From contig JAAEPF010000017.1 in assembly GCA_024222295.1 (NCBI GenBank), forward strand, positions 62,001 to 126,000: 64,000 nt of DNA, written 5' to 3'. The position numbers were made by a program, and so were the translations under genes. The DNA comes from Actinomycetes bacterium. GTDB taxonomy: Bacteria; Actinomycetota; Acidimicrobiia; Acidimicrobiales; Microtrichaceae. Of the stretch, positions 4,009 through 34,532 are shown one piece after another (the first letter of the stretch is position 1; each line of letters opens with the position of its first letter). A model generated the notes under the pieces. That model made no database searches. It worked only from the letters and a program-made list of their open reading frames with translations, and was not told the origin of the DNA.

Positions 4009-4047
4009 GTTGGTGCTGGATCACGCCAGGCGTGATCCAGCACCAGC
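4009..4047. repeat. Conserved intergenic palindrome, copy 1 (3' of purH)
   Basis: Inverted repeat with left arm TGGTGCTGGATCACGCC, a single central A, and a complementary right arm. It pairs 17 bp perfectly (4011-4027 with 4029-4045), plus a G-T and a G-C pair outside. It is followed by GCAGAACCGG, not a T-run. It belongs to the eight-copy family of this window. Confidence 0.9.
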
Positions 4048-28246: not shown

Positions 28247-29176
28247 ATGCCAGCTGTGGAGCCCGCCGACGAGTACCGACACGATTGCGACCCGGAGGTG
28301 GAGCTCTGGAACGAGAGCTACTACCTCGACTGGTTCGCCGAGGACCTGTCGGTGGGCGGCTATGTCCGCATCGGCTTCTATCCCAATCTCGGCAAGGTCT
28401 GGTACTGGGCGTGCCTGGTCGGTGAAGGCCGGCCGCTGGTGACCGTGATCGACCACGAGGTCGACATGCCCAGCTCATCGAGCTCGCTCGAGATCCGCCA
28501 CGACGGGCTCTGGGCCGACCATGCGATCGAGACGCCCAACGAGCACATGTCGGTCAACCTCGAGGCATTCGCGCTTGCTCTCGACGACCCGGCGTCGGTC
28601 TATGGGGATCCACGGGGCGACCGGGTGCCGTTCGGGTTCGAGCTCGACTTCCTCACCGACCGCGGCGCCTACATGTGGCCGCCGGTGACCCCGCGCTACG
28701 AGATCCCGTGCCGCGTCCAGGGTGAGGTGCTGGTTGGCGACGAGAAGATCACTGTCGACGGTTGGGGCCAGCGCGACCACTCGTGGGGTGCTGCGCGTGA
28801 CTGGTGGTCCAACCAGTGGAGCTGGACCGCCGGCCGGCTCGAGGACAGCACCCGCTTCCACGGGGTCGGTGGCTTCTTCCCCGGTGAGGACTGGGGCGTG
28901 GCGTACCGGTTGGATCCTCACACCAGTGAGTTCGTCGACACCCACGAGGTGTCGCTCGATGTCACCGAGGGCCGCGAGCGTCTGCCGGAGACCACGCGGA
29001 TCGGCTACTGCGACCTCGACTTCACGGTCACGCCACTGGCGTTCTCACCGGTCGGACTGTTCCATCCGGAGGACGGTCGCCTCGCCCGCTTCCCGCGTGC
29101 CCTTGCCCGATTCGATGCCGCCGACGGCCGCACCGGCGGCGGCTGGATCGAGTGGAACCAACCCCCGGTCGACTGA
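28247..29176 (+). CDS. AttH/CrtC-like (DUF7064/7065-type) protein
   Basis: 309-residue soluble protein. The central motif GWGQRDHSWGAARDWW and the later TRFHGVGGFFPGEDW match the pattern of the AttH/carotenoid-hydratase-like lipocalin fold found in DUF7064/7065 proteins of actinobacteria. These are often linked to lipid or terpenoid metabolism. Activity cannot be assigned. Neighbour SCP2 (divergent) would fit a lipid-related role, as inference. It converges on the HNH gene with 12 nt between the stops. Confidence 0.65.
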   Translation: MPAVEPADEYRHDCDPEVELWNESYYLDWFAEDLSVGGYVRIGFYPNLGKVWYWACLVGEGRPLVTVIDHEVDMPSSSSSLEIRHDGLWADHAIETPNEHMSVNLEAFALALDDPASVYGDPRGDRVPFGFELDFLTDRGAYMWPPVTPRYEIPCRVQGEVLVGDEKITVDGWGQRDHSWGAARDWWSNQWSWTAGRLEDSTRFHGVGGFFPGEDWGVAYRLDPHTSEFVDTHEVSLDVTEGRERLPETTRIGYCDLDFTVTPLAFSPVGLFHPEDGRLARFPRALARFDAADGRTGGGWIEWNQPPVD

Positions 29177-29188
29177 CGGCGACCTGGG

Positions 29189-29545
29189 TCAGGCGGGGTC
29201 GAACTCGGCCGCGAGGCGGGTGCTGATCTCGCGGTAGCGCAGCAGGAAGGCCTGCTCGTCGAGCTTCTTGCGCCGCATCCAGGTCGTCGTTTCCATGTTG
29301 CACTTGCTCGCGTTGCACGACCGGCACGCCGGCACGACGTTGGTGACGGTGTAGCGGCCACCGCGTGACAGTGCGAGCACGCAGTCTTTCTGGAGCGCAG
29401 CGGCGTCTTTCGAGCAGTAGGCGCACCCGCCCCAGGCCTCCTTCAGCGCTTCCCACTGGTCATCCGTGAGGTCGTTGTCGGCCTTTGCCATCCGCCGTGC
29501 ACGCTTGCGTGACGCCCGGGCGCGCCGTGACCTGCTCGCAGCCAT
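29189..29545 (-). CDS. Small HNH-fold protein with Cys in place of the first catalytic His
   Basis: 118 residues from ATG 29545; the frame continues upstream across the neighbouring lipoprotein gene but without homology. The N-terminus is Arg/Ser/Ala-rich. The HNH-like zinc core is CAYCSK (Cys41, Cys44), QKDCVLALSRGG, TNVVPACRSCNASK (Cys74, Cys77). Normal HNH enzymes have Asp-His at the position seen here as Asp54-Cys55. The zinc ligands and Asn are kept, the general-base His is not. It may be a non-catalytic DNA-binding variant, or the family may use another residue. TAGCGT is 7 nt upstream of ATG 29545. Confidence 0.75.
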   Translation of the reverse strand: MAASRSRRARASRKRARRMAKADNDLTDDQWEALKEAWGGCAYCSKDAAALQKDCVLALSRGGRYTVTNVVPACRSCNASKCNMETTTWMRRKKLDEQAFLLRYREISTRLAAEFDPA

Positions 29546-29552
29546 GGCCGCG

Positions 29553-29558
29553 ACGCTA
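29553..29558 (-). promoter_or_regulatory. Leaderless -10 box of the HNH gene
   Basis: TAGCGT on the minus strand, 7 nt before ATG 29545, no Shine-Dalgarno. Confidence 0.5.
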
Positions 29559-29589
29559 GTGAGCGACGCGCAGCCGTGCGCGGAGCCGG

Positions 29590-30402
29590 TCAGCCGCGTT
29601 CGCGGAGTTGGTAGGAGTTGCGGAACTCGTCCTGGATGACGGTCGCAATCCCGTCGATGTCCTCCACCACCAGGGGCTCGTCGAGCACTCTGGCCTGGAA
29701 GGACCAACCGTCGGGCAGGGCAAGTCGGTCGCCCAAGCCCGCAAGTGTGTCGAGCGTCTGCTCCGGGTCGATCTCGATGCTGTAGGACTGCATCACGTAC
29801 ACGGAGCCGTCGGGCCCGGTCAGCTCGTATACCTCGCGGCCCTCGTCGAAGATGAATTCGGTGTCGCGCAACACGGAAGTCTCGGTCAACGGGGTGCGGT
29901 CCCCGAAGCCCTCCTCGAGGTCGACGGTCGTGATGGAGCGCATCTCCACTGCGCCGAATGTGCGGAGCTCGCCCGTACCGGCGAGACCTTTGGCGAGGAT
30001 CCGATCGAGGACCCAGAAGCGGGGCCCGTTGGGCACGGCCAGCACGGCTCCCATCTCGGCGGCCGTTGCCTCGGCGTCGATGGCATCGAATCCTGCCTGG
30101 TCGCAGTCGTTGAGGCCCTGGGTACCCCACACCTGCGCGGTCGCACCGCCATCGCCCGTGGTGACCACCAGAACCTCGCAGTACCGCTGCCCGTACTGGT
30201 CGGCGAGGCCGGCACCTGCCGGGACCTGTGTGTCCGTGGTTGTGTCCGGCTCTTCGGCCGTGCTCGACGGTTCGGTGGACTCTGCGACCTCGGCCGCGGT
30301 ATCCGCGTCGTCGGCGGCCGGGTCGGCGTCATCGCCGGTGCACGCGCCAGCAACGGCCAGCAACGTGGTCAGCGCAGCGGCCAAGGCAAGACGGATTCGC
30401 AT
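29590..30402 (-). CDS. Putative lipoprotein, function unknown
   Basis: 270 residues starting MRIRLALAAALTTLLAVAGAC, a lipoprotein signal with lipobox AGAC (Cys21). It is followed by an acidic Asp/Glu/Ala/Thr-rich linker of about 45 residues and a globular domain beginning DQYGQRYCEVLVV and VWGTQGLNDC. Two Cys in that stretch may pair. No family with a known role is recognised. TACTGT stands 7 nt before the start. It diverges from the MFS-YbaK gene with a 54-nt shared promoter gap. Confidence 0.75.
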   Translation of the reverse strand: MRIRLALAAALTTLLAVAGACTGDDADPAADDADTAAEVAESTEPSSTAEEPDTTTDTQVPAGAGLADQYGQRYCEVLVVTTGDGGATAQVWGTQGLNDCDQAGFDAIDAEATAAEMGAVLAVPNGPRFWVLDRILAKGLAGTGELRTFGAVEMRSITTVDLEEGFGDRTPLTETSVLRDTEFIFDEGREVYELTGPDGSVYVMQSYSIEIDPEQTLDTLAGLGDRLALPDGWSFQARVLDEPLVVEDIDGIATVIQDEFRNSYQLRERG

Positions 30403-30409
30403 CGTCGGG

Positions 30410-30415
30410 ACAGTA
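30410..30415 (-). promoter_or_regulatory. Leaderless -10 box of the lipoprotein gene
   Basis: TACTGT on the minus strand, 7 nt before ATG 30402. Confidence 0.5.
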
Positions 30416-30444
30416 GTGGACGCAGTTCACGACCTGATTGCCCG

Positions 30445-30450
30445 TAGGGT
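30445..30450 (+). promoter_or_regulatory. Leaderless -10 box of the MFS-YbaK gene
   Basis: TAGGGT, 6 nt before ATG 30457; the divergent -10 for the lipoprotein gene is 30 nt away. Confidence 0.55.
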
Positions 30451-30456
30451 GCTGGC

Positions 30457-32532
30457 ATGTCCGAAGCCGCGCCCCCGATAGACGCGCCGGCGGAGCGTTC
30501 CGGCCCCGCCCCCGCCCTCACACTGCTGGCAACCGGTCTCGGGCTGTTCATGGTGTTCCTCGACGCCACGATCGTGAACGTGGCGCTGCCCGCCATCCAG
30601 TCCGACTTCGATGTGGGCGAGAGCGGAGTGCAGTGGGTCGTCGCCGCCTACAGCCTCACCATGGGCATGTTCATGATGACCTCCGCGACGTTGTCGGATG
30701 CCAACGGCCGTCGCAAGGCGTTCCTGATCGGCATCGCCATCTTCAGCGTTGCCTCACTGGCTTGCGGCCTTGCTCCGTCGCTCGGGGTACTCAACCTGTC
30801 CCGGGCAGTTCAGGGTGTCGGCGCGGCGGTGGTCAACGTGGCCTCGCTGGCGCTGGTCGGCGCCGCATATCCGGATCCGGCGGCGAAGGCGAAGGCTGTC
30901 GGCCTGTGGACGGGCATCGCTGCGATCGGCATCGCGATCGGTCCGACCGTTGGCGGGGTGCTCACCGAATCGATCAGCTGGCGGGCCGTGTTCCTGGTGA
31001 ATCCCGTGGTGGGTCTGGTCACCGCCGGACTGACCGTCATGTTCGTCCGGGAGTCCTCTTCGCCGACGAAGCACAGCTTCGACCTGACCGGACAGCTGCT
31101 CTTCATAGTCGGCATCGGTGCGATCACGTTCGCCCTCGTGCAGGCGCCCGTGTTCGGCTTCAGCTCTCCGGTGATCATCGGGTCGATTGTCCTCTCCCTC
31201 GTGGTGCTCGTCGTGTTCGTGCGGTTCGAGCTCAACTCCGAGGACCCGATGATGGACGTGCGCGTGTTCTCCGACATCGCGTACACCGCGGCCATCTTCA
31301 CGATGTTCGCGGCACTGTTCTGTGCCTACGGCACCCTGTTGGTGATCACGCAGTACTTCCAGAACGTGCGGGACTTCAGCCCGGAGCGCGCCGGAGTACT
31401 TCTGCTGGCCTTCTCGTTGCCTTCGATGATCCTGGCGCCCATTGCCGGTCGCCTGGCCGCCCGCTTCGGAGGTCGGCGCCCTGCGCTCGCCGGGCTGAGC
31501 CTGATCACCCTGGGCACTGCCGCGCTCGCCTTCAGCGCCGGGAGGGAAGTCTGGGTCACAGCAGTTGGATTGTTCATGGTCGGCGCAGGCGTGGGTCTGT
31601 CGGTGTCGCCGGCGACGGCGATGGCGATGGCTTCGATCAGCCCGGAACGCTCCGGCATGGCGTCGGGCATCCTCAGCACCCAGCGTGCAATCGGATCGAC
31701 TGCGGGTTTCGCGATCATGGGCAGCCTCCTGGCGCTCGTTGTGGGAGCCCAGTTGCCGGACAAGCTCGAGCCGGTCATCCCCGACGATTCCGATCGTGAC
31801 CAGGTCGTTGCAGATGTCGTGGATGCAGCGAATCCGTCGGCGGTGCCCGCCACTGTCGGCCCGAAGTCAGACCCTGATCCGCGCGACGAGGTGGTGGCGG
31901 CGACCGACTCGGCGTTCGTGGATGGCATCAAGGCGGCCCAGCTGTCGGGCACCGCTGTGGTGTTCGGTGCGCTGCTGTTCGGCTGGTTCGCGTTCCCGAC
32001 GGGCCGCAAGCAGGAGAGCGAGACCGAGCTTGGCGAAGCCGCGCTGCTCCAGGCGAGCCCGGATGACCCGTCCATCCGCAAGGTGATCGATGCGGCGAGG
32101 AGTGCGGGACTGGACATCTCGCCCTACCGGTTCCCCCAGGGAACGCGAAGTGCCGACGACGCGGCAAAGGCGATCGGTGTCGATGTCGAACGGATTGTGA
32201 AGAGCCTCGTGTTCGAGGTCGACGGCCGAATGGTGGTGGCCCTGGTCGGTGGTGCCGACATGGTCGACGAGCGGTTGTTGGCCGTGGCTGCCGGAGGTGG
32301 CAAGGCGAGTCGCCCTGATGCCGACGCGGTCCGAACCGCGACTGGGTTCGCAATCGGTGGCGTTCCACCCTTCGGGTACACCGAGGTGCTGTCGTCCTAC
32401 GTTGACCAGGCCCTGCTGGATCAGCTGACCGTGTGGGCCGCCGCCGGGACGGGTCAGGACGTATTCGAAGTGAGCCCCCACGAAGTCGTGCGCATCAGCG
32501 GCGCAGAGGTCACCAACCTGAAACGGGAGTGA
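30457..32532 (+). CDS. MFS drug exporter (DHA2/14-helix type) fused to a YbaK/aminoacyl-tRNA deacylase domain
   Basis: 691 residues in one uninterrupted frame. Residues about 20-515 are a 14-helix EmrB/QacA-type exporter: FMVFLDATIVNVALPAIQ (motif D1), DANGRRKAF (motif A), RAVQGVGAAVVNVASLAL, GPTVGGVLTESISWRAVF (motif C), with a charged loop before the last helix. After a short linker, residues about 538-690 form a YbaK/ProX-type editing domain: ISPYRFPQGTRSADDAA, IVKSLVFEVDGRMVVALVGG with the conserved Lys, TGFAIGGVPPFGY and VFEVSPHEVVRISGAEV. YbaK domains hydrolyse mischarged tRNA. The joined protein is unusual; no stop or frameshift separates the parts. Each half alone is a confident assignment; why they are joined is unknown. 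Confidence 0.88.
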   Translation: MSEAAPPIDAPAERSGPAPALTLLATGLGLFMVFLDATIVNVALPAIQSDFDVGESGVQWVVAAYSLTMGMFMMTSATLSDANGRRKAFLIGIAIFSVASLACGLAPSLGVLNLSRAVQGVGAAVVNVASLALVGAAYPDPAAKAKAVGLWTGIAAIGIAIGPTVGGVLTESISWRAVFLVNPVVGLVTAGLTVMFVRESSSPTKHSFDLTGQLLFIVGIGAITFALVQAPVFGFSSPVIIGSIVLSLVVLVVFVRFELNSEDPMMDVRVFSDIAYTAAIFTMFAALFCAYGTLLVITQYFQNVRDFSPERAGVLLLAFSLPSMILAPIAGRLAARFGGRRPALAGLSLITLGTAALAFSAGREVWVTAVGLFMVGAGVGLSVSPATAMAMASISPERSGMASGILSTQRAIGSTAGFAIMGSLLALVVGAQLPDKLEPVIPDDSDRDQVVADVVDAANPSAVPATVGPKSDPDPRDEVVAATDSAFVDGIKAAQLSGTAVVFGALLFGWFAFPTGRKQESETELGEAALLQASPDDPSIRKVIDAARSAGLDISPYRFPQGTRSADDAAKAIGVDVERIVKSLVFEVDGRMVVALVGGADMVDERLLAVAAGGGKASRPDADAVRTATGFAIGGVPPFGYTEVLSSYVDQALLDQLTVWAAAGTGQDVFEVSPHEVVRISGAEVTNLKRE

Positions 32533-32584
32533 CAGAGGACCGATTCCGCTCGGATGGGGGCGGTGATGCCGGCGAAGCTCCTGA

Positions 32585-32630
32585 CGGAGCGGATCGGATG
32601 GTTCGCCCCCAGAACATCCGATCCGCTCCG
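32585..32630. repeat. Long inverted repeat after the MFS-YbaK gene
   Basis: CGGAGCGGATCGGATG (32585-32600) pairs perfectly over 16 bp with 32615-32630, and the loop itself contains GTTC/GAAC pairing around GCCCCCA. It starts 53 nt after the stop. Its sequence is unrelated to the eight-copy palindrome that follows at 32771. The gap 32533-32851 (319 nt) holds only these two structures and no gene. Confidence 0.8.
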
Positions 32631-32770
32631 CGAAGGAGTCCCTCCATCCGGCGTGGCCGGAACGGTCTCGGATCTGCTTGCTTGCCAGCATGCGATCTGG
32701 AATCACATTAGGAAACCCGTCGCCCGAACGGAACAGGGAGAACTACCCGCCCCGCGCGCCTGTCTTGTCC

Positions 32771-32815
32771 TTTGTTGGCGCTGAATCACGCTGAGAGTGA
32801 TTCAGCGCCAACAAA
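32771..32815. repeat. Conserved intergenic palindrome, copy 7 (between convergent genes)
   Basis: TTTGTTGGCGCTGAATCAC (32771-32789) pairs perfectly over 19 bp with 32797-32815; loop GCTGAGA. Left arm begins with Ts and right arm ends with As, so an RNA from either strand ends the stem in Us or As symmetrically. It lies between the MFS-YbaK (+) and queF-like (-) genes. Confidence 0.92.
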
Positions 32816-32851
32816 ACGTCACGAATCCGCGCAATCGAGATTGTGGCGCAG

Positions 32852-33268
32852 TCAGGACCCGGGCGGCGGGTGCTCGACCACGGTGGTGATGCCCCCGCGC
32901 GGGTTCTGTGTCAGCCGCACCGACACGTCTGACACCGAGGGAGAGTGGTGGGCGATCGCGTCGTGGATCTCGAGCGCCAGGTATTCGGCGAAGATCCGCC
33001 GGTCCCGGAAGGTCACGAGCCAGAGCTTCAGCGACTTGGACTCGACCGCATGCGTCTGCGCCGTGTATGAGATCTCGGCGTTGTAGATGTCGGGCTGCAC
33101 TCCCTCAACGGCCGGACAAAGGGCTTCGAGTTCGTCGGTGCGAAACGTCACGCGCACGGGTGAGTCGACCTCGAAGAACTCGAGCCGGCCGTACTCGCCG
33201 GGGTCGACCCGCCTACCGAGCATGGACACGTCGGCCATCTCGCCTTGGCTGTCATCACGTTTGGTCAT
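32852..33268 (-). CDS. QueF-like protein (preQ0 reductase family), divergent
   Basis: 138 residues from ATG 33268, with AGAGGTGG just upstream. The core matches QueF, which reduces 7-cyano-7-deazaguanine to preQ1 using NADPH: the thioimide-forming Cys51 in ALCPAVEGVQPD with Asp60, and the NADPH motif ESKSLKLW (76-83) followed by FRDRRIFAEYLALEI. Two differences are visible: two extra residues between the catalytic Cys and Asp, and Ala94 where classical QueF has His (FHE becomes FAE). No other queuosine genes are near. QueF activity is likely but not certain; an altered substrate is possible. Confidence 0.75.
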   Translation of the reverse strand: MTKRDDSQGEMADVSMLGRRVDPGEYGRLEFFEVDSPVRVTFRTDELEALCPAVEGVQPDIYNAEISYTAQTHAVESKSLKLWLVTFRDRRIFAEYLALEIHDAIAHHSPSVSDVSVRLTQNPRGGITTVVEHPPPGS

Positions 33269-33353
33269 GCCACCTCTTCGATCTCGTCCAATTGGCCGAG
33301 CACCTTTCGGGGAAGCCGGGTGACGCGTACCGTGATCGCGAGGCCGGCGCCCG

Positions 33354-33872
33354 TCAGGAGTCGGAGCACTCTTTGTCGAAGTACTCGCTGATCGCGTCGT
33401 TGGCCGAGTTGTACTCGGGAGTGTCGAGCGCCTCGCTGCCCGACAGCAACCCTTCGGAGGCCACCTTGCCGATCGCCTCGGCCACTACGTCGATGTCATC
33501 GTGCAAGTCGCTCGGCAACACGTCCTTCAGCTCCTCGGCCTCCTTCTGTGCGGCCGTAGCACCTTCCTCGCCCCCGAGCGCCTGTATGTAGAGCGAGGCG
33601 TACTCGGTTGCCAACGTGAAGCAGTCGTCGAGGTCGCCGAGGTTGGGAAGCTGGTCGTCGAGCTCGTCGAGGTCCGGAATCTGGTCCTCCAGGTCATCAA
33701 GGCCGGGGATGCCGGAATCGCTGGAACCCGAGTCCTCGGATCCGGAGTCGGAACCCTCGCGCTCGTCGCTGCTGCGAGCAGCGGAGTCGCCGCTGTCGTC
33801 GCTCGAGCAGGCGGTGCCAACAAGGGCTATCGCGGCCAACGCGATCATCGGGAGCACGAAGAGCTTGCGCAT
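33354..33872 (-). CDS. Tandem lipoprotein A, function unknown
   Basis: 172 residues from ATG 33872 (CCGGAGG 7 nt upstream); an ATG ten codons earlier would spoil the signal peptide. Signal MRKLFVLPMIALAAIALVGTAC gives lipobox VGTAC. A low-complexity Ser/Asp/Glu linker and Asp/Leu-rich repeats (GLDDLEDQIPDLDELDDQLP) follow. The C-terminal about 90 residues (CFTLATEYASLYIQAL to YFDKEC) are shared with the next upstream gene, including LHDDIDVV, VASEGLL, PEYNSAN and the two outer cysteines. No known domain is recognised. Confidence 0.75.
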   Translation of the reverse strand: MRKLFVLPMIALAAIALVGTACSSDDSGDSAARSSDEREGSDSGSEDSGSSDSGIPGLDDLEDQIPDLDELDDQLPNLGDLDDCFTLATEYASLYIQALGGEEGATAAQKEAEELKDVLPSDLHDDIDVVAEAIGKVASEGLLSGSEALDTPEYNSANDAISEYFDKECSDS

Positions 33873-33965
33873 GCCAACCTCCGGTAGGTCTGCAACGGCC
33901 ACAGTCGCGGCCGCGGGCCGATCCTATCGCCGGGATCCCGCATCGGTTCCAGAACCTGAGGGTTC

Positions 33966-34532
33966 TCAGCCGCAGCCGTTGTCGAACCAGCCGGCCAACA
34001 CGGTATTTGCGTTGTTGTACGCGGGGGCCTCGAAGGCCGCACCGCCTTCGAGCACACCTGCCGAGGCGACGGTCGCAATCGCGCCGACCACCACGTCGAG
34101 GTCGTCGTGAAGTGCCGGCGGCAGCAGGGCCTTGAGCTGGGTTGCCGCCGTGCGGGCCTCGGCTGCTCCCCTGCGACCGTCGAGCGCGAGGAGGTGCAGC
34201 CTGCCGTAGGCGGCGCCCATCTCGATGCATGCTCGCGGTCCGGCCAGATCCGGTATCTGCTCCTCGAGCGCTTCGCGGTCCACCAGTGTGATGTCGGGGG
34301 TAGTTTCCACGGGGCCCGGGTCGGGCAAGTCGATCGATGTCGTGGCGGTGTCGTCTTCGGCCGACGGGGCGGTCGGGGGCGGCAGGTTGGCCGCCTCTTG
34401 TAGGGTCCTGGGTGCTGTGGTGGTGGTCGTCGGGGCGGTCTGTGGCCCCAGATCCTGGCGTGCGCACGAGGCCGCCAACATGGCAGGCAGCGCGAGGAGG
34501 ACCATCACAAGCGTGAGTCTGTGAACCGCCAT
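33966..34532 (-). CDS. Tandem lipoprotein B, paralogue of A
   Basis: 188 residues; the signal MAVHRLTLVMVLLALPAMLAASC carries lipobox LAASC. A Thr/Pro-rich linker is followed by a domain alignable with lipoprotein A: ACIEMGAAYGRLHLLAL, LPPALHDDLDVVVGAI, VASAGVLEG, PAYNNAN, WFDNGC. The pattern LPxxLHDDxDVV(x)2AI(x)2VASxG(x)LxG, then PxYNxAN, FD and Cys, defines the pair. It lies 39 nt downstream of sdhB on the same strand and could be read from the sdh operon. Function unknown. Confidence 0.75.
   Translation of the reverse strand: MAVHRLTLVMVLLALPAMLAASCARQDLGPQTAPTTTTTAPRTLQEAANLPPPTAPSAEDDTATTSIDLPDPGPVETTPDITLVDREALEEQIPDLAGPRACIEMGAAYGRLHLLALDGRRGAAEARTAATQLKALLPPALHDDLDVVVGAIATVASAGVLEGGAAFEAPAYNNANTVLAGWFDNGCG

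Follow-up and report, generated by a model that had tools for sequence, protein, structure and literature searches.

Exporters of the DHA2 class have 14 transmembrane helices, and in this transporter class the N-terminus is cytosolic. The trans-editing protein ProXp-x of the INS superfamily (PDB 2CX5, 2Z0K and 2Z0X; Thermus TTHA1699) is treated, in the accessible portion of a review that uses 2CX5 as its ProXp-x example, as a single-domain protein that deacylates Abu-tRNA and Ala-tRNA(Pro) (PMC11295145). The same portion describes the superfamily's members beyond the INS domain as single-domain proteins, although it also records ProXp-ala joined to ProRS in lower eukaryotes (protists) and carrying a C-terminal domain in plants. 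In these proteins an INS-superfamily domain is likewise joined to another, but the partner, in the text at hand, is not a transporter; it is either a synthetase or an extension assisting tRNA binding (PMC11295145). A tRNA-handling enzyme is combined with a membrane protein or anchor in LysX (LysRS-MprF) and in the membrane-anchored cyanobacterial synthetases, as far as the available parts of the sources describe them (PMC9437257; PMC4893482); these are synthetases, however, not deacylases, and LysX feeds lipid lysylation. No transporter fused to an INS-superfamily domain was found in the literature searched, which was mostly non-subscription and partly accessible.

Here we describe a gene of this kind in a window of 64,000 nucleotides, the whole stretch of DNA analysed, which is the interior of a 527-kb contig (C17, 527,196 bases) of genome G000 (3.76 Mb, 97% complete). 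Its editing-type domain resembles ProXp-x in aligning over the whole domain and in retaining the superfamily's Lys and GXXXP loop, but it is joined to a 14-helix exporter. The exporter part, in turn, is like the DHA2/EmrB-QacA exporters in scoring over the family cut-off, but is followed by a 155-residue enzyme-like tail that its three nearest unfused orthologues lack. Because both halves belong to known families, the novelty of the protein lies in its architecture. Our preferred reading, held tentatively at a probability of roughly 0.48, is that a ProXp-x-type deacylase was tethered to the exporter by a single fusion and is still active in the window organism, with no coupling to transport required.

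An exporter and an editing-type domain in one frame

The fused gene and its parts are as follows.

30457..32532, plus strand: fused ORF, a single open frame of 691 amino acids plus stop
30457..32004, plus strand: DHA2/EmrB-type MFS exporter, residues 1-516 (TIGR00711, MFS_1 and the structure model)
32005..32064, plus strand: linker, residues 517-536 (by comparison with unfused orthologues)
32065..32529, plus strand: ProXp-x-like editing domain of the INS superfamily, residues 537-691 (PF04073; 2CX5)
32200..32202, plus strand: codon of Lys582, the superfamily's conserved Lys (alignment of domain sequences)
32356..32370, plus strand: GXXXP loop, residues 634-638 (GGVPP), read from the sequence; a loop feature according to the accessible part of PMC11286415

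The frame opens with an ATG at 30457, closes with a TGA at 32530-32532 and is unbroken throughout. The first-pass annotation had described one uninterrupted 691-codon frame holding an exporter and an editing domain, and this was borne out, with no stop or frameshift between the domains. Pfam matched the fused protein to MFS_1 at 28-417 (E 9.6e-50) and to tRNA_edit (PF04073) at 562-679 (E 2e-20), both above the gathering score.

The exporter part scored 261.5 bits against the NCBIfam DHA2/EmrB model TIGR00711 (cut-off 230.2), the best stretch covering profile positions 3-409 of 485. An AlphaFold2 model, made from a four-row alignment (window, L014, L015 and L016, with L017 left out) in which two rows cover the tail, has 14 long predicted helices, counted from its helix list. 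Block mean confidence lay mostly at 66-93 across residues 21-510 and dropped at 201-210 and 461-480; pLDDT was mostly under 50 for residues 515-691. The cut-off score and the helix count agree with the earlier description of a complete 14-helix DHA2-type exporter. With 14 helices the N-terminus and the tail are predicted to share one side of the membrane, which fits the earlier picture of a C-terminal domain hanging in the cytosol. In a PDB search the exporter part aligned, over residues about 22-431, with 7Y58 (an antiseptic resistance protein, QacA-type), EfpA and EmrB, and the NCBIfam models matching the transporter were described as drug or antibiotic exporters almost throughout, among the 25 of 70 matches listed.

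Three unfused orthologues of the transporter were found: L090 (56% identity, 526 aa), L091 (47%, 557 aa) and L092 (42%, 572 aa). All three end no more than about 60 residues past the last helix and lack the editing domain; the search row of L091 reaches residue 548 by running through a TAG, while its tblastn match ends at 517, also without an editing domain. No editing-domain gene was found in the 18 kb around L091 or L092 (L100, L101). The surroundings of L090 (L099, 9.6 kb) cover its upstream side, since the contig ends about 0.13 kb past the gene. Fused and unfused orthologues share a (V/I)(V/I)D-x-ANP motif (DAANP, DGANP or DSANP) between helices 13 and 14, at residues about 455-462, which marks this transporter subfamily.

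For the tail, the nearest solved relative by sequence was 2CX5 (E 1e-26, residues about 537-690). The Cys-tRNA(Pro) deacylase 1DBU matched at E 5e-13, and ProXp-ala 5VXB was absent among the nine PDB sequences listed. By sequence, the domain appears nearest to the ProXp-x type. YbaK proper was considered and ruled out, the tail scoring 66.3 bits against the 153.25-bit cut-off of the equivalog model TIGR00011. Of the YbaK/ProX-type assignment first given to this domain, membership of the INS superfamily stands and identity with the YbaK equivalog does not.

A second fusion and the ancestry of the tail

A second fusion is present, in a single frame, in the Microthrixaceae MAG ACE_NR_ACTI2 (hereafter ACTI2; L014 and G214:C9 are one contig, counted once). 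The ACTI2 protein is 71% identical to the window protein over residues 31-689, and 671 residues of the two align with no gap, the junction being identical in place. The fusion is real, and it is kept in a second related genus. The same domain order was to be sought in other genomes, and its occurrence in ACTI2 means that the fusion is not absent from relatives.

Beyond this pair the architecture was not seen again. A contig scan with the whole protein, which depends on exact short peptides and so finds close relatives only, gave four relatives, of which L014 spans both domains; matches to the remaining three are confined to the transporter part. The fusion is present in 2 of 33 family genomes (G000 and G214), that is, in two genera; PF04073 is without a match in the other two genomes of the G214 genus (G019, 96% complete; G215, 55%). 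Among 395 class genomes, matches over both domains at E <= 1e-75 occurred only in G000 and G214. Only G000 gave such a match among 396 phylum genomes, and likewise among 198 order genomes at E <= 1e-80, a sample that does not include G214. The family, order, class and phylum samples overlap, and the larger searches scored 2 to 5 top candidates per genome. A full-length query detects fusions with a related transporter; a fusion to an unrelated one would be missed.

The tail has many free relatives: a match to the window tail at E <= 1e-10 was found in 186 of 395 class genomes, and 175 of 397 order genomes have one to the ACTI2 tail at E <= 1e-12, G000 and G214 being included in both counts. Identity to the window tail is 51-59% for 18 f7-family proteins (tree members covering at least 135 positions), 63% for one partial f7 protein over 104 positions, and 49% for the ACTI2 tail, below the values for the f7 proteins. 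A 40-row tree groups the two fused tails as one clade (support 100/99), which joins 19 f7 proteins (support 89/87); its bootstrap was not fully converged, and a long-row warning covers ACTI2. The end branches are 0.31 for the window tail and 2.55 for the ACTI2 tail. The simplest reading is a single fusion after which the two tails evolved unequally.

Wear and constraint in the fused domains

In the available parts of two papers, the features of the INS superfamily are a Lys and a GXXXP loop (PMC11286415), and the Lys (K45 of Cc ProXp-ala) is called strictly conserved in the results and conserved "nearly universally" in the discussion (PMC10164551); its change to Ala dramatically impaired deacylation in all members tested (PMC10164551). 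The window tail keeps both K582 and the loop, G634-P638, and the conserved Lys and GGVPPFG motif (634-640) noticed in the first reading of the sequence are indeed there. The ACTI2 tail keeps the loop, and its Lys is replaced by Glu (K582E). We compared the Lys position in 57 distinct domain sequences, namely the 2 fused tails, 38 from the first two locus sets and 17 of 26 later loci (9 being duplicates). L058 and L059, whose frames are of ProRS length, were left out, and the set consists of best matches, not a random sample. Lys was found in 53 sequences, Glu in 2 (ACTI2 and the free protein L052) and Asn in 2 (L047 and L056).

The exceptions among free proteins are of the same family. L052, a free protein resembling ProXp-x (G202:C724, minus strand), comes from a 6.9-kb contig of a genome 83% complete and has Arg601 together with its Glu; L047 and L056 are free PF04073 proteins. 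Arg601 occurs in 6 of the 57 sequences. Both Glu sequences have it (N601R in ACTI2), and the other four, L122 and L125 among them, keep the Lys.

Conserved columns were taken from 29 free relatives, chosen from 38 by dropping the 9 most distant. Of 67 such columns the window tail keeps 55 and the ACTI2 tail 42, while in left-one-out comparisons the worst free relative keeps 59 of 71. By these counts the wear of the window tail slightly exceeds that of the worst free relative, and the wear of the ACTI2 tail does so clearly. The two fusions depart alike at G578E, Q579R and S598G, and both have lost N601 and H641. The S598G and H641Y changes of the window are also found in free relatives (L122, L125; L133).

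Between the two fusions, pN/pS was 0.27 for the transporter (bootstrap 0.22-0.33) and 0.53 for the tail (0.42-0.67), by a counting method with synonymous changes near saturation. By these values the tail, averaged over both branches, is still constrained, but less than the pump. Over 152 tail codons, position 2 differs at 29% and position 3 at 65%. In neutral substitution-only simulations the frame stayed open in 4-28% of cases at distances 1.6-0.2; an open frame by itself is weak evidence of constraint. Relative-rate tests found the ACTI2 tail to be faster than the window tail with all seven outgroups (p 0.002-0.02), and gave no clear difference for the transporter parts with two outgroups (p 0.06 and 1.0).

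The chief rival to our preferred reading is that the fused domain no longer edits in either lineage and is a relict, or else a structural, folding or partner-binding tail. K582E and the many other losses of ACTI2, and the acceleration of its domain but not clearly of its transporter, speak for it, and the window tail itself lacks N601, H641, G578 and Q579 of the free family. Set against this are the remaining constraint, seen in both the pN/pS of the tail and the difference between codon positions 2 and 3, and the retention of Lys and GXXXP in the window; we consider loss of editing in both lineages possible but rather unlikely.

Genome context and the role of the fused domain

The fusion gene stands alone, with a divergent ORF on one side and a convergent ORF on the other.

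29590-30402, divergent from the fusion: lipoprotein-like ORF, no Pfam match
32767..32817, no strand assigned: palindromic repeat between the fusion and the QueF-like ORF (folding energy -34.4 kcal/mol, z -7.9)
32852-33268, minus strand: convergent QueF-like ORF, QueF match E 5.6e-13

QueF is an enzyme of tRNA queuosine modification. The QueF-like ORF is therefore a second tRNA-related gene beside the fusion, but it was not seen, by eye, beside the ACTI2 fusion, and its position is probably due to chance. Also judged by eye, the ACTI2 gene (L014) is preceded by ABC-transporter ORFs and followed by an FAD-oxidase-like ORF. Rfam gave no match in 29000-34000, and a promoter and terminator scan of 30200-33000 returned none of either; the palindrome at 32767-32817 is a possible terminator, of the fusion gene or of another. 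A near-perfect palindrome with a 27-nt core, up to about 50 bp long, is dispersed in the window, with copies at 4015, 18275, 19351, 21053 (3 mismatches), 26168, 26880 and 32780. These are 14 strand-matches at 7 places with up to 3 mismatches, where 0.00 were expected; G000 has 31 forward and 29 reverse matches with up to 2 mismatches, and a reversed control had 0. Two further lipoprotein-like ORFs on the minus strand, 33354-33902 and 33966-34532, have no Pfam match and are paralogues (42% identity over 103 residues).

The fused tail is the single PF04073 match in G000, although at 97% completeness another could be missed. The ProRS proteins of G000 and G214 score over the proS_fam_I cut-off and match the ProRS model with the editing insert only in part. 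Because it is the sole PF04073 match and the ProRS is of family I, the tail is the only superfamily candidate found in the window organism. PF04073 matches are present in 11 of 33 family genomes and absent from 22; among the 17 good genomes (at least 90% complete, at most 5% contaminated), 5 have a match and 12 have none. As most genomes have no match, the function is dispensable in the family.

In the preferred reading, that of a tethered and still active deacylase, a DHA2 drug or metabolite exporter would have gained a ProXp-x-type trans-editing domain after its last helix by one gene fusion. In the window organism the domain would sit in the cytosol on the exporter's C-terminus, most likely deacylating mischarged tRNA, and may stand in for the missing free editing protein. 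By analogy with ProXp-x, the substrate would be Ala- or 2-aminobutyryl-tRNA. No mechanical link between transport and editing is required, and in the sister lineage, ACTI2, the domain may have decayed or changed its function. In favour of this reading are the intact frame in two genera, the single clade of the fused tails, the three tail-less orthologues, the K582, GXXXP loop and short branch of the window tail, its S598G and H641Y changes that recur in free relatives, the absence of another PF04073 match in G000, the family I ProRS and the pN/pS of the tail. Against it are the lost Lys and heavy wear of ACTI2, the lesser wear of the window tail with its loss of N601 and H641, the many family genomes with no PF04073 match and the low confidence of the modelled domain. 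We infer the activity, its substrate, its tethering to the membrane and the lack of coupling. Given the Glu of ACTI2 and the faster evolution of its domain, something besides deacylation probably helps to maintain the fusion.

A coupled function, in which the pump would expel an amino-acid analogue and its tail would clear any tRNA charged with that analogue in error, strikes us as improbable. The fusion has been kept in two genera, and there is a parallel in CtdA, a free editing protein that, in the accessible part of its description, protects against canavanine and adjoins a degradation operon (PMC10018355). But no amino-acid-analogue pathway was found among the ten ORFs around the gene scanned with Pfam, the surroundings of the ACTI2 fusion differ by eye, the Lys is lost there, and the NCBIfam models noted above are mostly those of drug or antibiotic exporters. 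Self-protection by export and editing of the same analogue, which the first-pass annotation had put forward, thus found no support in a lone gene whose neighbours differ and whose ACTI2 counterpart has Glu for Lys.

More improbable again is the reading of the domain as a sensor, of aminoacyl-tRNA or a free amino acid, by which the exporter is gated. Constraint that persists, as an average over both branches, despite the loss of the ACTI2 Lys would be in keeping with it, and the pairing of K582E with N601R in ACTI2, and of the same residues in L052, might convert what was a phosphate site into one for an amino acid. Yet there are two such co-occurrences only, and four of the six Arg601 sequences keep the Lys. 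In its specific form, with the editing fold as the exporter's cytosolic sensor or gate, binding aminoacyl-tRNA in the window protein and a free amino acid in ACTI2 (Lys to Glu, Asn601 to Arg), the proposal is, if anything, a shade less probable still. We know of no earlier transporter governed by an aminoacyl-tRNA editing domain, and a sensor or gate, if true, would be the first.

The chance that an assembly artefact or frameshift merged two adjacent genes is negligible: nothing but the rarity of the architecture favours it, the same fusion in one frame with an identical ungapped junction in a second MAG makes a frameshift or chimera very unlikely, the locus lies well inside its long contig, and no editing-domain gene stands beside L091 or L092, for which both flanks were covered.

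If the preferred reading of a tethered, active deacylase is true, an editing enzyme acting in trans and attached to a transporter would bring quality control of translation to the membrane, the site of amino-acid entry or exit. The fused pair, one with and one without the Lys, is also a natural test of whether the superfamily fold can be kept for a role other than deacylation.
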